Below, in pieces: positions 35,276 to 43,335 of a stretch of 64,000 nucleotides of DNA (positions within the stretch are counted from its first letter, which is position 1; each line of letters opens with the position of its first letter). The DNA is taken from assembly GCA_014192065.1 (NCBI GenBank), contig BJHH01000001.1:1-64000 (forward strand), given 5' to 3'. The position numbers and the translations under genes are program-made. The stretch is from Gemmatimonadota bacterium. GTDB taxonomy: Bacteria > Gemmatimonadota > Gemmatimonadetes > Gemmatimonadales > Gemmatimonadaceae. The notes under the pieces were generated by a model that saw nothing but the letters and a program-made list of their open reading frames with translations, had not been told where the DNA came from and ran no database searches.

Positions 35276-35353
35276 CTTCAATGGGTGCTCAAAAGACGAA
35301 GTGGACGCGGCGTGCGCCGCGCGGTGCCGCCGAAGGACGGCGAAGAGGCAGGG

Positions 35354-36622
35354 ATGCCTGAAAACGAGGTGGTGGCCGAGCCGGTAAACGACGCGATCGT
35401 TGACGTGGACAGCCCCGAAGCGGTCGAATCACAGGACGAAATCGGCGAGATCAGCAGTTCAGGCGCGCTGGCCGCGGCTGAGGCGGCCACCGTCGGCATC
35501 ACCTTTGCCGAGCTGGGACTGAGTGAGCAGATGTTGCATGCCCTCACCGATGCCGGCTACAAGCATCCGACGCCGATCCAGGCGCAGGCGGTTCCGCTCG
35601 CCCTCAAGGGCCGCGATCTGATGGGGCTCGCGATGACCGGAACCGGCAAGACCGCCGCGTTCACGATCCCGATTATCGAACGACTGATCGGCGGGCCACG
35701 GCGGACGCGCGCGCTCATCCTTACGCCGACGCGCGAACTCTGTGTGCAGGTTGAGGAGAGCTTCACGAAGTATGGCCGGCACAGCGGGCTGCAGGTGATC
35801 AGCGTGTACGGTGGTGTCGGCTACGATCCGCAGGTGAAGGCGCTGCGCGGCGGTGTCGACGTCGTCGTGGCGACGCCGGGCCGGCTCATCGACCACCTCG
35901 AGAAGCAGAACGTGGCGTTCGACGAGATCGAAGTGCTGGTGCTCGACGAAGCCGATCGGATGCTCGACATGGGTTTCGCGCCGCAGATCAACAAGATCGT
36001 GGCGCAGCTCGACAAGTACCGGCAGACGCTGCTCTTCAGTGCGACGATGCCGCCTGAAGTCGAGGCGCTCGCCCGGAAGTACCTGCGCAAGCCGGTGGTG
36101 GTGCAGGTGGGCCGTCGTTCCGCAGCGGCGAATACGGTCACGCACTACGTCTATCCTTGCCCGAAGGAAAAGAAGACGGTGCTCCTGGCGAAGCTGATCA
36201 AGGAGCACAACATGGACACGGTGCTGGTGTTCACACGCACGAAACATGGCGCGGACCGGGTGGTGAAACACTTGGAGAAGGAGGGCATCGAGTCCGACGC
36301 GATGCATGCCGACAAGACGCAGGGACAGCGCACGAAGGCGTTGGCCGACTTCAAGAAGGGCAAGACGAAGGTGCTCGTGGCGACGGACATCGCGCAGCGC
36401 GGCCTCGACATTTCGCACATCACCCACGTGGTGAACTACGACGTGCCGCAGCAGGCCGAGGATTACATCCACCGCATTGGCCGCACGGGGCGCGCGGCGA
36501 AGACGGGTGATGCGTTCACCCTGATGTCGGCTGACGAGATCGGGATGGTGCGGACGATCGAGCGGATGATGGGGAAGCCGATTCCACGGGTGTCGGTGCA
36601 GGGGTTCGACTTCGGGACCTAG
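35354..36622 (+). CDS. DEAD-box RNA helicase
   Basis: ATP-dependent RNA unwinding, probably in ribosome assembly or mRNA turnover. 422 residues. Q motif region FAELGLSEQMLHALTDAGY and PTPIQAQAVP, Walker A AMTGTGKT, PTREL, VLDEADRMLDMGF, SATMP, and ARGxD/HRIGRTGR near the end are all present. The acidic N-terminal ~55 residues are extra. It lacks the long basic C-terminal tail of RhlE or CsdA types. ATG 35354 has GAGG 5 nt upstream; GTG 35285 would add 23 basic residues. Confidence 0.93.
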   Translation: MPENEVVAEPVNDAIVDVDSPEAVESQDEIGEISSSGALAAAEAATVGITFAELGLSEQMLHALTDAGYKHPTPIQAQAVPLALKGRDLMGLAMTGTGKTAAFTIPIIERLIGGPRRTRALILTPTRELCVQVEESFTKYGRHSGLQVISVYGGVGYDPQVKALRGGVDVVVATPGRLIDHLEKQNVAFDEIEVLVLDEADRMLDMGFAPQINKIVAQLDKYRQTLLFSATMPPEVEALARKYLRKPVVVQVGRRSAAANTVTHYVYPCPKEKKTVLLAKLIKEHNMDTVLVFTRTKHGADRVVKHLEKEGIESDAMHADKTQGQRTKALADFKKGKTKVLVATDIAQRGLDISHITHVVNYDVPQQAEDYIHRIGRTGRAAKTGDAFTLMSADEIGMVRTIERMMGKPIPRVSVQGFDFGT

Positions 36623-37252: not shown

Positions 37253-37507
37253 ATGCCCGCTGCCCACCACGTCCGCCGCGCATTTATCTATTTCGCCGTC
37301 CTCGCTGCCGCTGCCGGCTGCACGAATCCGCGCGAGATCGCCTACCTCAACGAACAGATGAATCAGGCCGCCGACGCCATTGCCGATGTGCGCACGACGA
37401 TGAGCAACATGCAGTCGAGTATCGACTCGCTGACGTTGGTCGTGGCGAAGCAGGACTCGACAATCGGCAGGATCGCCATCGCGACCAACGTGCAGATAAT
37501 CAAATGA
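37253..37507 (+). CDS. small coiled-coil lipoprotein
   Basis: 84 residues. Signal with lipobox AVLAAAAGCTN. The mature part (EIAYLNEQMNQAADAIADVRTTMSNMQSSIDSL...) is a continuous heptad-type helix, reminiscent of murein-lipoprotein-like rods, though no family is recognised. GGAG lies 5 nt before ATG 37253. Its TGA overlaps the next start (ATGA), coupling it to the SGNH hydrolase. Confidence 0.75.
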   Translation: MPAAHHVRRAFIYFAVLAAAAGCTNPREIAYLNEQMNQAADAIADVRTTMSNMQSSIDSLTLVVAKQDSTIGRIAIATNVQIIK

Positions 37508-38139
37508 GCTTGCTGGTTGGCGCGGCGCTCCTAAACAACACCTTCACCTTTCTCGCCTTGGGCGACAGCTACATGATTGGCGAGGCCGTGGATGCTGCTT
37601 CGCGCTGGCCTGTGCAATTGGCGCGGTCGCTGCGCGCGGCCGGGTTGGCGGTGAACGATCCGCGGATCGTCGCGCGCACCGGATGGACCACGGACGAGTT
37701 GAGTGCTGGCATCGACGAGGCCGTCGTGGTCGGAACGCATTCGCTCGTGTCGTTGCTGATCGGTGTGAACAACCAGTATCGTGGGCGACCGCTCGAGGAA
37801 TACCGTGTGCAGTTCCGCCGACTGCTCGATCGGGCAATCGGCTACGCGGGTGGCGATGCGGCGCGCGTTCTCGTGCTCTCGATTCCCGACTGGGGCGTGA
37901 TGCCGTTCGCCGAGGGCCGGGATCGTGCCAAGATCGGCCACGAGATCGATCAGTTCAATGCCACCGCGAGGGCGGAAGTGGAACACTCGGGCGGGCAGTG
38001 GGTGGATATCACGTCGACGTCGCGCGAAAAGCACCCGGACTGGGCGGCGGCGGACGGGCTCCACCCATCCGGCGCCCAGTACTCGGCGTGGGCGGCGTTG
38101 GCGTTCGCGCCGGCGAAGCGCGTGCTCTCAGCTCAGTAG
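37504..38139 (+). CDS. SGNH/GDSL-family hydrolase
   Basis: 211 residues. Block I LALGDSYMIGE (Ser nucleophile), block III GVNNQYR (Asn) and block V DGLHPSGAQY (Asp-His) are present. Block II Gly is less obvious. Family members are esterases, lipases or deacetylases; here no signal peptide is seen at the chosen start, so it is probably cytoplasmic unless the overlapping start is wrong. Coupled to the lipoprotein gene; converges with the M20 gene 9 nt later. Confidence 0.85.
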   Translation: MSLLVGAALLNNTFTFLALGDSYMIGEAVDAASRWPVQLARSLRAAGLAVNDPRIVARTGWTTDELSAGIDEAVVVGTHSLVSLLIGVNNQYRGRPLEEYRVQFRRLLDRAIGYAGGDAARVLVLSIPDWGVMPFAEGRDRAKIGHEIDQFNATARAEVEHSGGQWVDITSTSREKHPDWAAADGLHPSGAQYSAWAALAFAPAKRVLSAQ

Positions 38140-38148
38140 GGCGATGCT

Positions 38149-39477
38149 TTACTGCGTGCGGCCGAACCGCAGGTAGTCCGCCGCCAGGCTCGACATGATG
38201 CGTACGCCGATCGGCAATGCCTTGTCGTCGCCCACGAAGAGCGGTGAGTGGTTTGATGCGGCGGTCCGCCAGTCCTTGTCTTGCGGCGTCACGCCCAAGT
38301 TCACGAACGCACCAGGCGCTAGGGCTGCAAATCGCGAAAAGTCTTCGCCGGCGAGGCCTGCAGGGTTCACGCGAAACTTCGCGGCGCCTGCAACCCGCTG
38401 CAGCGTTGGCACCATGCGCTGTGTGAGCAGCGAATCATTCAGCGTCACGTCGTAGCCGCGTGTGATCGTGACCTCCGCGGTTGCGCCGCCCGATTGGGCG
38501 ATCCCCTCGGCCGTGCGCTTCACGCGCTCGTGGATGAGGGTGCGCATCGGTTCGTCGTAGGTGCGAATCGTGCCAATCATCCAGACGGTGTCCGGGATAA
38601 TGTTCTCGCGGAGGCCGCCTTGAAACGCGCCGATGGTGACGACCGCCGGAGCCGTCGTGAGGTTGATCTGGCGGCTGACGATTGTCTGCAGTCCGAGTAC
38701 GATCTGCGAACCGATCACGATCGGGTCCACACCATTGGACGGGAATGCGCCGTGGGTCTGCCGGCCACGCACGACGATTCGCAATCCATCGGCGGCGGCA
38801 GAGGTCGGGCCCGGGCGTACCGAGACCGTACCGAACTCGCCGCTGCCGACGTGGAGCCCGAACACCGCATCGACTTTTGGATTGTCCATCGCCCCTGCGG
38901 CAATCATCGGCCCCGCGCCGCCGGTCGGCGGAGCCTCCTCTGCGGGCTGGAACAGAAAGACGACGGTTCCCGTGAGTTGCGACTTGAGTCCGGCGAGCAC
39001 CTCGGCCGTTCCCATCAGCATGGCCGTATGCATGTCGTGGCCGCAGGCGTGCATGACGCCGGTCTCTACACCGTTGTACGTGGTGCGAACCGTCGACTTA
39101 TATGGCACATCGGCAAGTTCCATGACTGGCAAGGCGTCCATGTCGGCGCGGAGCGCGACCACCCGGCCCGGCTTGTCGCCCTTCAAGACGCCGACGACGC
39201 CATTGCCGCCGACGCCGGTGCGCACCTGCATACCGAGGGCACGCAGGTGGTCAGCGACCAGCTTGGCCGTCCGCACTTCTTGGTTCGACAGTTCAGGATG
39301 CTGATGGATGTCGCGGCGCCATGCCGTCACCTTGTCGGCGATGGCTATTGCACGCCGGTCAATCTCGGCGGCCAGCGCGTCTTGGCCGCCTGATACCGGA
39401 CCCTGTGCGATCGCGGCACGGGGTGCGATGAACAGGGCAGCGGCGATGCAGGCGGACAACAGTGAGCGGCTCGGCAC
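38149..39477 (-). CDS. secreted M20-family amidohydrolase
   Basis: 442 residues, GTG start with GGAG 5 nt upstream. Signal peptide LLSACIAAALFIAPRAAIAQ. Metal-site motifs HACGHDMHTA, FQPAEEAP and AGEDFSRFA match the amidohydrolase/aminoacylase (hippurate hydrolase-like) branch, whose members remove acyl groups from N-acyl amino acids or related amides. The dimerisation domain (about residues 215-330) is intact. The stop is 9 nt from the SGNH hydrolase stop. Confidence 0.92.
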   Translation of the reverse strand: MPSRSLLSACIAAALFIAPRAAIAQGPVSGGQDALAAEIDRRAIAIADKVTAWRRDIHQHPELSNQEVRTAKLVADHLRALGMQVRTGVGGNGVVGVLKGDKPGRVVALRADMDALPVMELADVPYKSTVRTTYNGVETGVMHACGHDMHTAMLMGTAEVLAGLKSQLTGTVVFLFQPAEEAPPTGGAGPMIAAGAMDNPKVDAVFGLHVGSGEFGTVSVRPGPTSAAADGLRIVVRGRQTHGAFPSNGVDPIVIGSQIVLGLQTIVSRQINLTTAPAVVTIGAFQGGLRENIIPDTVWMIGTIRTYDEPMRTLIHERVKRTAEGIAQSGGATAEVTITRGYDVTLNDSLLTQRMVPTLQRVAGAAKFRVNPAGLAGEDFSRFAALAPGAFVNLGVTPQDKDWRTAASNHSPLFVGDDKALPIGVRIMSSLAADYLRFGRTQ

Positions 39478-39612
39478 AGGTGCTCCACGTCGGATGAAAT
39501 GGTGGACTGCGGTGATGCTGAACGGTACGTGGTCGAATTCGCTGGCGCCACCGGCCGCTTTGGGTCGATATTCATTCAGTCACGTAGGTCATCCACTCCC
39601 GGGCCAAACGCC

Positions 39613-39849
39613 ATGCGCGTCACGATCGAATACTGCGCTGCTTGAAACTACGAACCCCGTGCCGTCGGTCTGGCGGCAGCCGTTCGTGACACGTATCCCG
39701 ATGCCGAAATCGAGATGATGTCGTCCGGTGGCGGACGATTCGAGGTGTCCGTCGACGGTACGCCAGTATTTCAGAAATCCAATTTGGGGCGGCACGCGAG
39801 GCCTGGTGAATTGCTCGCCCTGATTACCGCGGTCGCGCCGCGCAACTAG
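39613..39849 (+). CDS. SelW/Rdx-family selenoprotein (in-frame TGA read as selenocysteine)
   Basis: 78 residues if TGA at 39643-39645 is read as selenocysteine (residue 11). The N-terminus MRVTIEYCAAU gives the family Cys-x-x-Sec redox motif right after the first beta strand, followed by NYEPRAVGLAAAVRDTYPD (helix), GRFEVSVDGTPVFQKSNLG and a C-terminal helix ending at TAG 39847. This is the thioredoxin-like Rdx fold of SelW/SelT/SelH, which has a CxxU or CxxC. Sequence downstream of the TGA is open and family-like, so TGA is not a simple stop. A GGUCU-loop hairpin lies 21 nt after it. Function of the family is thought to be thiol-based redox; partner unknown. No SD seen. Confidence 0.85.
39660..39678 (+). 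promoter_or_regulatory. putative bacterial SECIS element
   Basis: TGCCGTC-GGTCT-GGCGGCA folds as a 7-bp stem (one U-G pair) with a GGUCU apical loop. The loop starts 21 nt after the TGA of the selenoprotein gene. The E. coli fdhF SECIS also presents GGUCU in its loop at a similar distance, and SelB recognises the loop G and U. It lies inside the coding region, as expected for bacteria. Confidence 0.75.
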
Positions 39850-40030
39850 CGCGCCGCCAAGTTGGTTCACGAATCAGAGGCCGCCGCGCATGCGCACGGC
39901 GAGTTCGACTGGACCGGGATCCGTTTTGGCGACTGCGGGGTAATAGCCGGGTGAGGTTGCATGCGGTAGAATTGTGTCTGTTCCTCGCCGTCGCTCGTCA
40001 AATTGTTGATCGGCACGGAAGCGTCTGGAG

Positions 40031-40531
40031 GTGGCGGTGGTCGCGTGGGGTCGGTGGAGCGTCGGGGCGGCATTGACCGCCATGAACCTTGCGGTGCCGG
40101 TGGGTAATTCTCTCGCGGCACAGGCTGGGGCAAAGGACACAAAGACCGCACTGGTGCCTGCGTCAGCGATGCCGCCGGCCGGTATGTGTCGTGTATGGCT
40201 TCGTGACGTCCCCGAGCACCAGCAACCGGCTCCAACCGACTGCACCACGGCCATCAAGACCATGCCGCGCGACGCGCAGGTGCTCTTTGGCGACCTGCAG
40301 CGGGCTGCGACCGTTGCCGCTCCCGGCACTGTGTCGGCCTTTCGCGGCACCGGCGGTAACAACGGAGAGGTGCGGTCAGCGGCGCAGGCTGCCGCTGCGG
40401 CGCGCGCCGTCGGTGGCCGGCAGGGAATCGTCGGCGGCCGGCAGGGGATCGTCGGCGTTTCATCGAGCGCGCCCGTCGCGGCAAAAGCACCCGAAGCCAA
40501 GGCTGTGATCAAGCCGGAGAAGCCGCAGTAA
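40031..40531 (+). CDS. exported protein with conserved Cys pair, unknown function
   Basis: 166 residues from GTG 40031 (GTG 40037, with GGAGG 5 nt before it, is equally plausible). Signal sequence VGAALTAMNLAVPVGNSLAAQ. The mature part has GMCRVWLRDVPEHQQPAPTDC, with two Cys 17 residues apart, then DAQVLFGD. Near the C-terminus a 21-bp DNA tandem repeat encodes GGRQGIV twice. The final 20 residues are Ala/Lys/Pro-rich. Its TAA overlaps the proposed GTA start of the helicase. Function unknown. Confidence 0.65.
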   Translation: MAVVAWGRWSVGAALTAMNLAVPVGNSLAAQAGAKDTKTALVPASAMPPAGMCRVWLRDVPEHQQPAPTDCTTAIKTMPRDAQVLFGDLQRAATVAAPGTVSAFRGTGGNNGEVRSAAQAAAAARAVGGRQGIVGGRQGIVGVSSSAPVAAKAPEAKAVIKPEKPQ

Positions 40532-43335
40532 CGCAGTACTCTGCTTCCTCGGATCCGCTGCTTCGCAGCGTCCGCGATCCCTACCTCCCGCCGGACCATG
40601 ACGCGTTTGTCGCGTCTGGTGCGACGCGCCGGGTCATCGTAATCGCGCCCACACGCGCGGCGTGTGAGACGATCGAACTCGCCTTCTCGCTCGACATCGA
40701 CACGCTGCTCTGGCGCGAGCATGGGCCGGAGCTCGCGGCGCTCGCAGAGAAGTTCCGTGCCGAGGACCTCTCGATCGCGCCGGGGGGCGCGCGTCGCGGT
40801 TTCGGGATCGTCGCAGGCACGGGCACCGGCAAGACCCTCTCGATCCGGCCAATCGCGCAGACGCTGCTGGGGGTCGATGGGGTGAGCGGTCTCCGCGTGG
40901 GCGTGATCAACCGAGAGCGCGAAGCGACACCCGACTCGCCGACGTGGAACGTCGTGATCGTGACGACCGGCATTGCGCGGCGGTGGTTCCAGGCCGGCGA
41001 GATCCGCGTGCAGGACACGATCGTCGTCGATGAAATTCACCAGACGAGCGCCGAGCTCGAACTCTGCCTCGCGCTTGGCAAGCGCGTCGGGTGCCGGTTC
41101 ATCTGGCTCTCGGCGACGGTGGATCCGCGATTCTATGCGCGGTATCTCGATTCCGACGCCGTGGTGGAAAGCACGGCGTTCGACCCGACGAAGGCCGCCG
41201 ATGTGCAGGTGATTCATGTGTCGCCGCTCCATTTTCTCGACGACCGTTTTTTGCAGCGAGTGCACAAGGAGGCGCGCGGCGTTGGCGTCTTTCTGCCCAC
41301 TCGCGCCGCGGTTGAGGCCGCGGCGGCCGGAGTGAGTGCGCGCTTCCCGCGAATCACGGCGCAGTTCTACCACGGCGGCGAACCGATCCGCGTGATCCGG
41401 CCCTTCCTCGACGGCACCATCCAGAAACCGTATCTGCTCGCGATGACGGCGGCTGGGCAGAGCGCGCTGAACGTGCAGGGGCTCGACACGGTGGTGATCG
41501 ACGACACGCGTTTCGCGAACCTCGTGGAGAACGGCCGCAACGTGCTCACCAAAGTGCACCTCGGCTCGAACGAGATTCTGCAGATGGCGGGGCGGGTGCA
41601 TGGCCGCGTGGCGGGCGGGCGGGTGTTCATTCTTTCGGACCGCAACATCGCGTTCGGGATGCTCCGGCCCACCGAACCCGAGTTTCAGCTCGCAGGCGAC
41701 AGTCAGCGCGTTGCACTCACCTGCGCCGCACTCGGCGTGCGCGCGGATGCCCTCGAACTCCCTGTGCCGCTCGACCGGCCGAGTTACCAGAAGGCGCTGG
41801 ACAAACTGGAGTCGCGCGGGATTGTTGAGCACGGCAAGCTCACACGGTACGGCAGGTCGGTCGAGGCCATGCCAGTGGACCGGCCGTGGGCCGAGCTGTT
41901 GGTGCACTGCGACGATGCGTTGCTGCCGTACGTGGCGGTGATGGCGGGCATCGAGTCGCTGCACCGGATGACGCGTGAGGACCGTGACCTCGCTGGGCTG
42001 CTCGTGCGCGGGAGCGACAATCTCACTGCGTACAACGTGTACGCCGACGCGTTCTCGCACTGCGGATATGCGGGCGAGGTGTACGGGTTGCCGCGGCACC
42101 TCTTCGACGACAGCGTCGAACGGTGGGCCGAGCGGCGGGGCGTGCTGGTGAAGTCCATGGAAGATGCGGCGCTCGCGATGGCGAGCATCTACCGCGCCGT
42201 CGGGATCGCGCTCCCGTCGGCGATGCCGCGTGTGTCGGAAGCCATCGAGCGAAAATTCATCGACCTCCTCGCCAAGGTGAATCCGTTCGACCTCGTGATC
42301 GACGAACGCACGGCGGATGGCCACGATGCGCGCGTCTCGAAGACGAGCGTCGCTGGCAGCTGGGGGCCGATCTGCGGCACGTTGCGCTACTTCGCTGACA
42401 AGTTCGGGATTCCGCGCGCAGCGATCGAAGGGACAAATATTCCGATCGCCCTCGTGAAGCGATTCGCGACCGCGAGCGCGCCGACGCTGGTGTTCGACGC
42501 GCGGCACAAACAGTCGCCGCTCGCGATCGAGCGGCGGGTGACCTACTTCGGGTTCGAGCTGGAGCGTGAGCGCGAGGCGGTGCACGAGTTTCCGCTTGGG
42601 CTCGAGCAGCAGGCTCGTGCGGTCCTCGCGGGCGCGCTCGCACGAGGCGAGGCCAAGCACGCGGCCGTGCCGCGTAATCAGCAGGCGATTGAGCAGGTGC
42701 GCGAGGCGTGGCGACGGTCGGGTGGGCGGACGACGAAGCTCGGGCTACATGAACTCACGCTCTGGTACGAGCAGCAGCTCGCGGGCATTCGGTCGCTCCA
42801 CGATTATCGTGCCCTGCCGCTCCGAATCAGCGCCGACGATTTTGTCTCGCGCGAGGAGCGGGAAGAGCTGGCGCAGTTGCCGGGCGCAGTGGAAATCCGC
42901 GGACGGAACTGCGCGATTCACTATGAAGTCGAAGACGATTCGCCGAGTGGCAGTTGCGGTGTGCTCCGCATCGTGATGCACGAGAAAGTGGCGCGGGGGC
43001 TCGCGGCTGAGGAATTGCCGCCGCTCGACCGGCCGCTGCGATTCACCGTGACGCGCGGTGCGCGGGGGTCGGTCAAGGCGAACTCAGTGGCCGAATTGGA
43101 CGAGGCGCTCAACCGGCCGTTCACCGATGACGAGCTCGTGCGGGACTCTGGTCGCGACCAACGGCGCGGCGCCGGCACTGGCGACCGTGGCCGTGGGGGC
43201 CGTGATGCGCGCGGCGGTGGTCGCGGTGATCGTGGTGGGCCCGGCGGGTTCAGTGGCGATCGGCGCGGCGGAAAGGGTCCGCACAAGCCTGGTTCGCCGT
43301 CCGGGCGAGGGAAGCGGCGAGGCAGCGACCGGTAG
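40528..43335 (+). CDS. DEAH-type ATP-dependent RNA helicase with C-terminal RGG tail
   Basis: 935 residues if started at GTA 40528. Walker A GTGTGKT (97-103), the DEIH box (168-171), LSATVDP and QMAGRVHGR (arginine finger region) are present, as in HrpA/HrpB-type helicases. The first canonical start in frame is GTG 40882, which would delete Walker A. The upstream frame from about 40531 is family-like (DPYLPPDHDAF, VIVIAPTRAACETIEL). GGAG lies about 8 nt before GTA, which overlaps the previous TAA. The last ~50 residues are Arg/Gly-rich (RGRGGRDARGGGRGDRGG), a probable RNA-binding tail. Start is uncertain; family is firm. Confidence 0.88.
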   Translation, partial: VTQYSASSDPLLRSVRDPYLPPDHDAFVASGATRRVIVIAPTRAACETIELAFSLDIDTLLWREHGPELAALAEKFRAEDLSIAPGGARRGFGIVAGTGTGKTLSIRPIAQTLLGVDGVSGLRVGVINREREATPDSPTWNVVIVTTGIARRWFQAGEIRVQDTIVVDEIHQTSAELELCLALGKRVGCRFIWLSATVDPRFYARYLDSDAVVESTAFDPTKAADVQVIHVSPLHFLDDRFLQRVHKEARGVGVFLPTRAAVEAAAAGVSARFPRITAQFYHGGEPIRVIRPFLDGTIQKPYLLAMTAAGQSALNVQGLDTVVIDDTRFANLVENGRNVLTKVHLGSNEILQMAGRVHGRVAGGRVFILSDRNIAFGMLRPTEPEFQLAGDSQRVALTCAALGVRADALELPVPLDRPSYQKALDKLESRGIVEHGKLTRYGRSVEAMPVDRPWAELLVHCDDALLPYVAVMAGIESLHRMTREDRDLAGLLVRGSDNLTAYNVYADAFSHCGYAGEVYGLPRHLFDDSVERWAERRGVLVKSMEDAALAMASIYRAVGIALPSAMPRVSEAIERKFIDLLAKVNPFDLVIDERTADGHDARVSKTSVAGSWGPICGTLRYFADKFGIPRAAIEGTNIPIALVKRFATASAPTLVFDARHKQSPLAIERRVTYFGFELEREREAVHEFPLGLEQQARAVLAGALARGEAKHAAVPRNQQAIEQVREAWRRSGGRTTKLGLHELTLWYEQQLAGIRSLHDYRALPLRISADDFVSREEREELAQLPGAVEIRGRNCAIHYEVEDDSPSGSCGVLRIVMHEKVARGLAAEELPPLDRPLRFTVTRGARGSVKANSVAELDEALNRPFTDDELVRDSGRDQRRGAGTGDRGRGGRDARGGGRGDRGGPGGFSGDRRGGKGPHKPGSPSGRGKRRGSDR

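Follow-up and report, generated by a model that had tools for sequence, protein, structure and literature searches.

Whether an in-frame TGA ends a short reading frame or encodes selenocysteine (Sec) is the question raised by a locus in the 64,000-nucleotide stretch of Gemmatimonadota DNA analysed here in full (the window). Reading the sequence from ATG 39613, we found a TGC codon for Cys8 at 39634 and TGA as codon 11, followed by 67 open codons and a TAG at 39847-39849. A first-pass annotation had described this frame, with the TGA at the second position of a CxxU redox motif, as a hidden selenoprotein gene; its coordinates proved exact and the peptides that it quoted correct. Our analysis indicates that the locus is almost certainly a gene for a SelW-like selenoprotein of the Rdx family, in which UGA codon 11 would be recoded through SelB and a downstream hairpin (Table 1).

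Table 1. Coordinates of the predicted selW-like gene, its elements, its neighbours and two further TGA-containing genes of the same genome.
Feature	Position	Strand	Basis or remark
DEAD-box helicase	35285-36622	+	Upstream of selW
GDSL lipase	37504-38139	+	Upstream of selW
M20 peptidase	38149-39477	-	Upstream of selW
selW-like CDS, 78 aa with Sec11 (MRVTIEYCAAU NYEPRAVGLAAAV...), stop TAG	39613..39849	+	Sequence, homology, conservation, fold
CxxU redox motif Cys8-Ala-Ala-Sec11	39634..39645	+	No variation at Cys8 or position 11 among 25 relatives
Predicted Sec-UGA codon	39643..39645	+	TGA here in 54/54 loci examined at base level, counting the window copy (L016-L069, chosen by a TGA-requiring pattern, which none of them failed)
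Predicted bacterial SECIS hairpin, lower and upper stem	39649..39688	+	Folding
SECIS upper stem, 7 bp (39660-39666 with 39672-39678), and loop GGUCU (39667-39671)	39660..39678	+	Covariation, loop codon constraint
ORF without Pfam or NCBIfam match	40031-40531	+	Downstream of selW
AhpC-TSA/Prx-type protein with in-frame TGA (...FFPKARTRG-U-TAQM...)	L079 / G000:C2:74281-74667	+	Outside the window
fdhA with one in-frame TGA and SECIS	L080 / G000:C1:159186-161054	-	Outside the window

The gene is absent from the table-11 open reading frame (ORF) list of the window (50-amino-acid minimum), which instead gives overlapping ORFs in other frames (39308-39718 on the + strand and 39589-39870 on the - strand), in line with the earlier claim that a standard gene caller would miss or split it. 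No clear Shine-Dalgarno sequence was seen upstream of ATG 39613. The window has 373 frames that are broken by a TGA and then stay open for more than 60 codons, and 12 of these have Cys at -3; therefore, a CxxU motif alone is not significant. Homology, for which the family-match search covered the selW frame alone among these 12, and conservation set the selW frame apart from chance TGA-interrupted frames. A chance frame is ruled out by the family match through the TGA (E 3e-18) and by the dozens of relatives that share this TGA.

For all program searches, the TGA-encoded residue was written as Cys. Comparing the 78-residue translation with SelW, SelT and SelH proteins, the check proposed in the first-pass annotation, gave a match to the Pfam family Rdx (PF10262) that covers residues 2-72 and runs through the TGA (66.2 bits, cut-off 22.6, E 3.1e-18). 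TIGR02174 (SelT/SelW/SelH) was also matched above its cut-off (60.3 bits versus 34.2), and the score against NF041051, the Campylobacter-type SelTWH equivalog, was 87.5 bits versus a curated cut-off of 88. PDB sequence matches comprised MIEN1/C17orf37 and an Agrobacterium SelW-related protein, with alignments that cross the TGA position. An AlphaFold model (pLDDT 93), generated from an input alignment of 25 own-locus relatives, had the SelW fold, with a predicted first strand at residues 2-8, at whose end the CxxU motif lies. Among the PDB structures that matched this model, ranks 1-22 were all taken by chains of SelW-related proteins, Rdx proteins or MIEN1, and mouse SelW came 23rd; TM values were 0.85-0.87 for SelW-related proteins and 0.84-0.88 for the solved Rdx structures from Agrobacterium, Pseudomonas and Vibrio. 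The part encoded after the TGA, whose homology had been named as a test, matches Rdx along its whole length and folds as SelW.

Relatives keep the TGA at the same codon, and neither a frameshift nor an additional stop recurs consistently among them. Homologues carrying one or more in-frame TGA codons were found in 91 of 198 class genomes; TGA was absent from two further weak matches (G010 and G029) and from a second fragment in G057. TGA-containing relatives with an intact downstream frame were also present in Planctomycetota, SAR324, Krumholzibacteriia and Lambdaproteobacteria. Using an Rdx profile search of the 198 class genomes, we identified just two Rdx genes that clearly lack the TGA, one in G029 and the other a second copy in G136. 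These genes (G029:C55:36143-36364 and G136:C57:143837-144055) scored higher in the profile search and apparently belong to a different subfamily. SelA was present in 87 of the 91 genomes with a TGA-containing selW versus 70 of the 107 others (Fisher p 5e-8, not corrected for phylogeny). The four TGA-selW genomes with no SelA above the cut-off or at all (G087, G131, G134 and G188) are all draft assemblies, two of them only 65% and 81% complete.

Recoding of the TGA implied SelA, SelB, SelD and tRNA-Sec elsewhere in the genome, and targeted family searches of the assembly (2.45 Mb, 97.8% complete) recovered all four above curated cut-offs: selA (531 bits versus 268), selB (365 bits versus 242), selD (380 bits) and, directly adjoining selD, a tRNA-Sec gene (selC) with a TCA anticodon (82.6 bits versus 47). 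No tRNA genes were found within the 64-kb window itself. The genome also carries a formate dehydrogenase alpha gene, fdhA (653 bits), with one in-frame TGA (...IDSCNRT-U-HAPSVVGL...), and a TGA-containing AhpC-TSA/Prx-type gene in which TRG-U equals the TxxU of Prx selenoproteins. As both are TGA-interrupted and belong to known selenoprotein families, this genome has three or more genes for apparent selenoproteins, selW included. The CMD/AhpD gene of the same genome has no TGA.

No obvious selenium operon surrounds selW. The ORF directly downstream is kept in that position in many Gemmatimonadota (~40-60% identity over 47-96 amino acids), and because the neighbours listed in Table 1 recur near selW in relatives, its neighbourhood is conserved though variable. 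Further along, an 817-amino-acid ORF (40882-43335, + strand) is weakly HrpB-like (TIGR01970, 44.9 bits versus 546; no Pfam match at 1e-3); it may be an HrpB-like helicase that has diverged or lost its 5' end.

The hairpin that had been noted downstream of the TGA is present. A gathering-threshold Rfam scan of the window gave no matches, so the SECIS was tested directly. The predicted element folds at -20.2 kcal/mol (z -2.3 versus dinucleotide shuffles); its lower stem is specific to the window sequence and not clearly conserved in relatives. It agrees with the published bSECIS model (PMC13188914) in all four of its constraints, and has a GGUCU loop, a distance of 21 nt from the UGA to the start of this apical loop, a 7-bp upper stem and a folding energy of ~-18 kcal/mol. 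Across 36 distinct sequences, 94% of the upper-stem cells were paired and 17 were double-changed, the outermost pair supplying most of these (12/17). The covariation score was reached by none of 500 shuffles and was destroyed by sliding the partner strand. Codon choice in the loop was also constrained: loop glycine was encoded by GGT in 41/41 cases versus 39/287 glycines elsewhere in the gene, and the serine variant by AGT in 12/12 versus 3/194; because these counts come from related sequences, p-values should not be taken literally. In locus L034, alone among the 54, this codon is AGG (Arg). This constraint points to selection on the RNA rather than on the protein. Folding after synonymous reshuffling gave a mean z of -1.1, negative in 45 of 50 sequences, which is moderate evidence, weaker than that from loop codons and covariation. 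In fdhA of the same genome, GUC-GGUCU-GGC lies 18 nt past its own TGA and its apical motif equals that of selW; two unrelated genes thus share the element. The SECIS of Escherichia coli fdhF also has a GGUCU loop, and mammalian SelW uses a SECIS in the 3'-UTR.

These data bear on three other accounts of the TGA. A real gene could yield most of its full-length protein by basal readthrough with a near-cognate tRNA and not by Sec insertion; given the SelB-type hairpin with its invariant loop and covarying stem, and the co-occurrence with selA, we consider this very improbable. That the locus is a decayed Rdx pseudogene, in which a nonsense mutation turned a Cys codon into TGA, would draw on the single base that separates TGA from TGC or TGT and on the existence of non-TGA Rdx genes. 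The same TGA is, however, kept across many genera and in the relatives from other lineages with the downstream frame intact, the hairpin is under strong synonymous constraint and the Sec machinery is present; the pseudogene reading was rejected, being refuted by conservation, and its probability is slighter still.

A frame left open past the TGA would also be seen if TGA were a sense codon genome-wide, for example for Trp or Gly. Here the codon occupies the conserved Cys/Sec column of the CxxC/CxxU motif, selA, selB, selC and selD are all present, and a conserved SECIS would be unnecessary; an alternative genetic code was rejected on these grounds and is vanishingly unlikely. Selenocysteine, the reading favoured from the outset, is upheld by the machinery, the conserved UGA and the Rdx homology, and none of the three tests put forward with it, on the Sec genes, the relatives and the downstream half, refuted it.

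The selenoprotein reading is directly supported by the sequence, the homology, the machinery, the conserved UGA, and the conserved hairpin and loop. Mechanistically, SelB carrying Sec-tRNA-Sec would recognize the hairpin with its apical GGUCU loop just downstream, and Sec would be inserted at UGA codon 11. The product would be a small oxidoreductase of thioredoxin fold whose CxxU centre, formed by Cys8 and Sec11, is probably redox active and most likely cycles between selenenylsulfide and thiol/selenol forms with a small thiol or a protein as putative partner. The function of SelW-like proteins has been called unclear, with the CxxU motif suggesting a redox role and an interaction with glutathione reported (PMC1088965).

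Bacterial SelW-like selenoproteins from the Sargasso Sea, GOS and complete genomes (PMC1088965, PMC2398784, PMC1794560) similarly belong to the Rdx family and have CxxU, an in-frame UGA with a bSECIS and few Cys forms among Sec-using bacteria; the gene described here differs in its Gemmatimonadota host, and carries a C-terminal GRHAxPGE in place of the GGFP-like stretch of other SelW relatives. In Campylobacter jejuni, full-length translation of selW through the UGA was shown by Ribo-seq and peptides (PMC11955535). That protein (NF041051 family) is likewise ~80 amino acids long, and its gene is similarly small, unannotated and decoded with Sec at a UGA, whereas our protein, with Sec as Cys, falls just under the NF041051 equivalog cut-off and comes from another phylum. 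Mouse SelW (2npb) and human MIEN1/C17orf37 (2ljk) have the thioredoxin-like Rdx fold in common with it but are remote; SelW has CxxU, whereas MIEN1 has Cys. The solved Rdx proteins of Agrobacterium (2fa8), Pseudomonas (2obk) and Vibrio (2p0g) share the fold but are not selenoproteins, 2fa8 having CxxC in the alignment.

The SelW-like family is a well-known, textbook family of bacterial selenoproteins, to which the Gemmatimonadota lineage adds a member; the gene therefore matters mainly as one overlooked by ordinary gene callers. Omission of selW genes from annotation is already known (PMC4607533), and we found no report of SelW in Gemmatimonadota in the open papers searched, nor anything relevant in a broader search by titles and abstracts. 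We tentatively propose, as a possibility somewhat short of an even chance, a SelW clade that consists of Sec forms only and occurs in Gemmatimonadota and, more sporadically, in Planctomycetota, SAR324 and other lineages. Its members would have in common the apical loop GUC[G/A]GUYUGGC, which SelB would bind and which fdhA uses too, and would be marked by a distinctive C terminus, in Gemmatimonadota GRHAxPGE; loss of the Sec machinery would have been accompanied by loss of this gene and not by replacement of Sec with Cys. Listing ORFs under table 11 overlooks a conserved redox gene in roughly half of the class genomes sampled, and these bacteria probably use selenocysteine, with several apparent selenoproteins. 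Constraint on the loop codon gives an exceptionally clear in silico signature of SelB recognition, with which further selenoproteins of the phylum could be sought.
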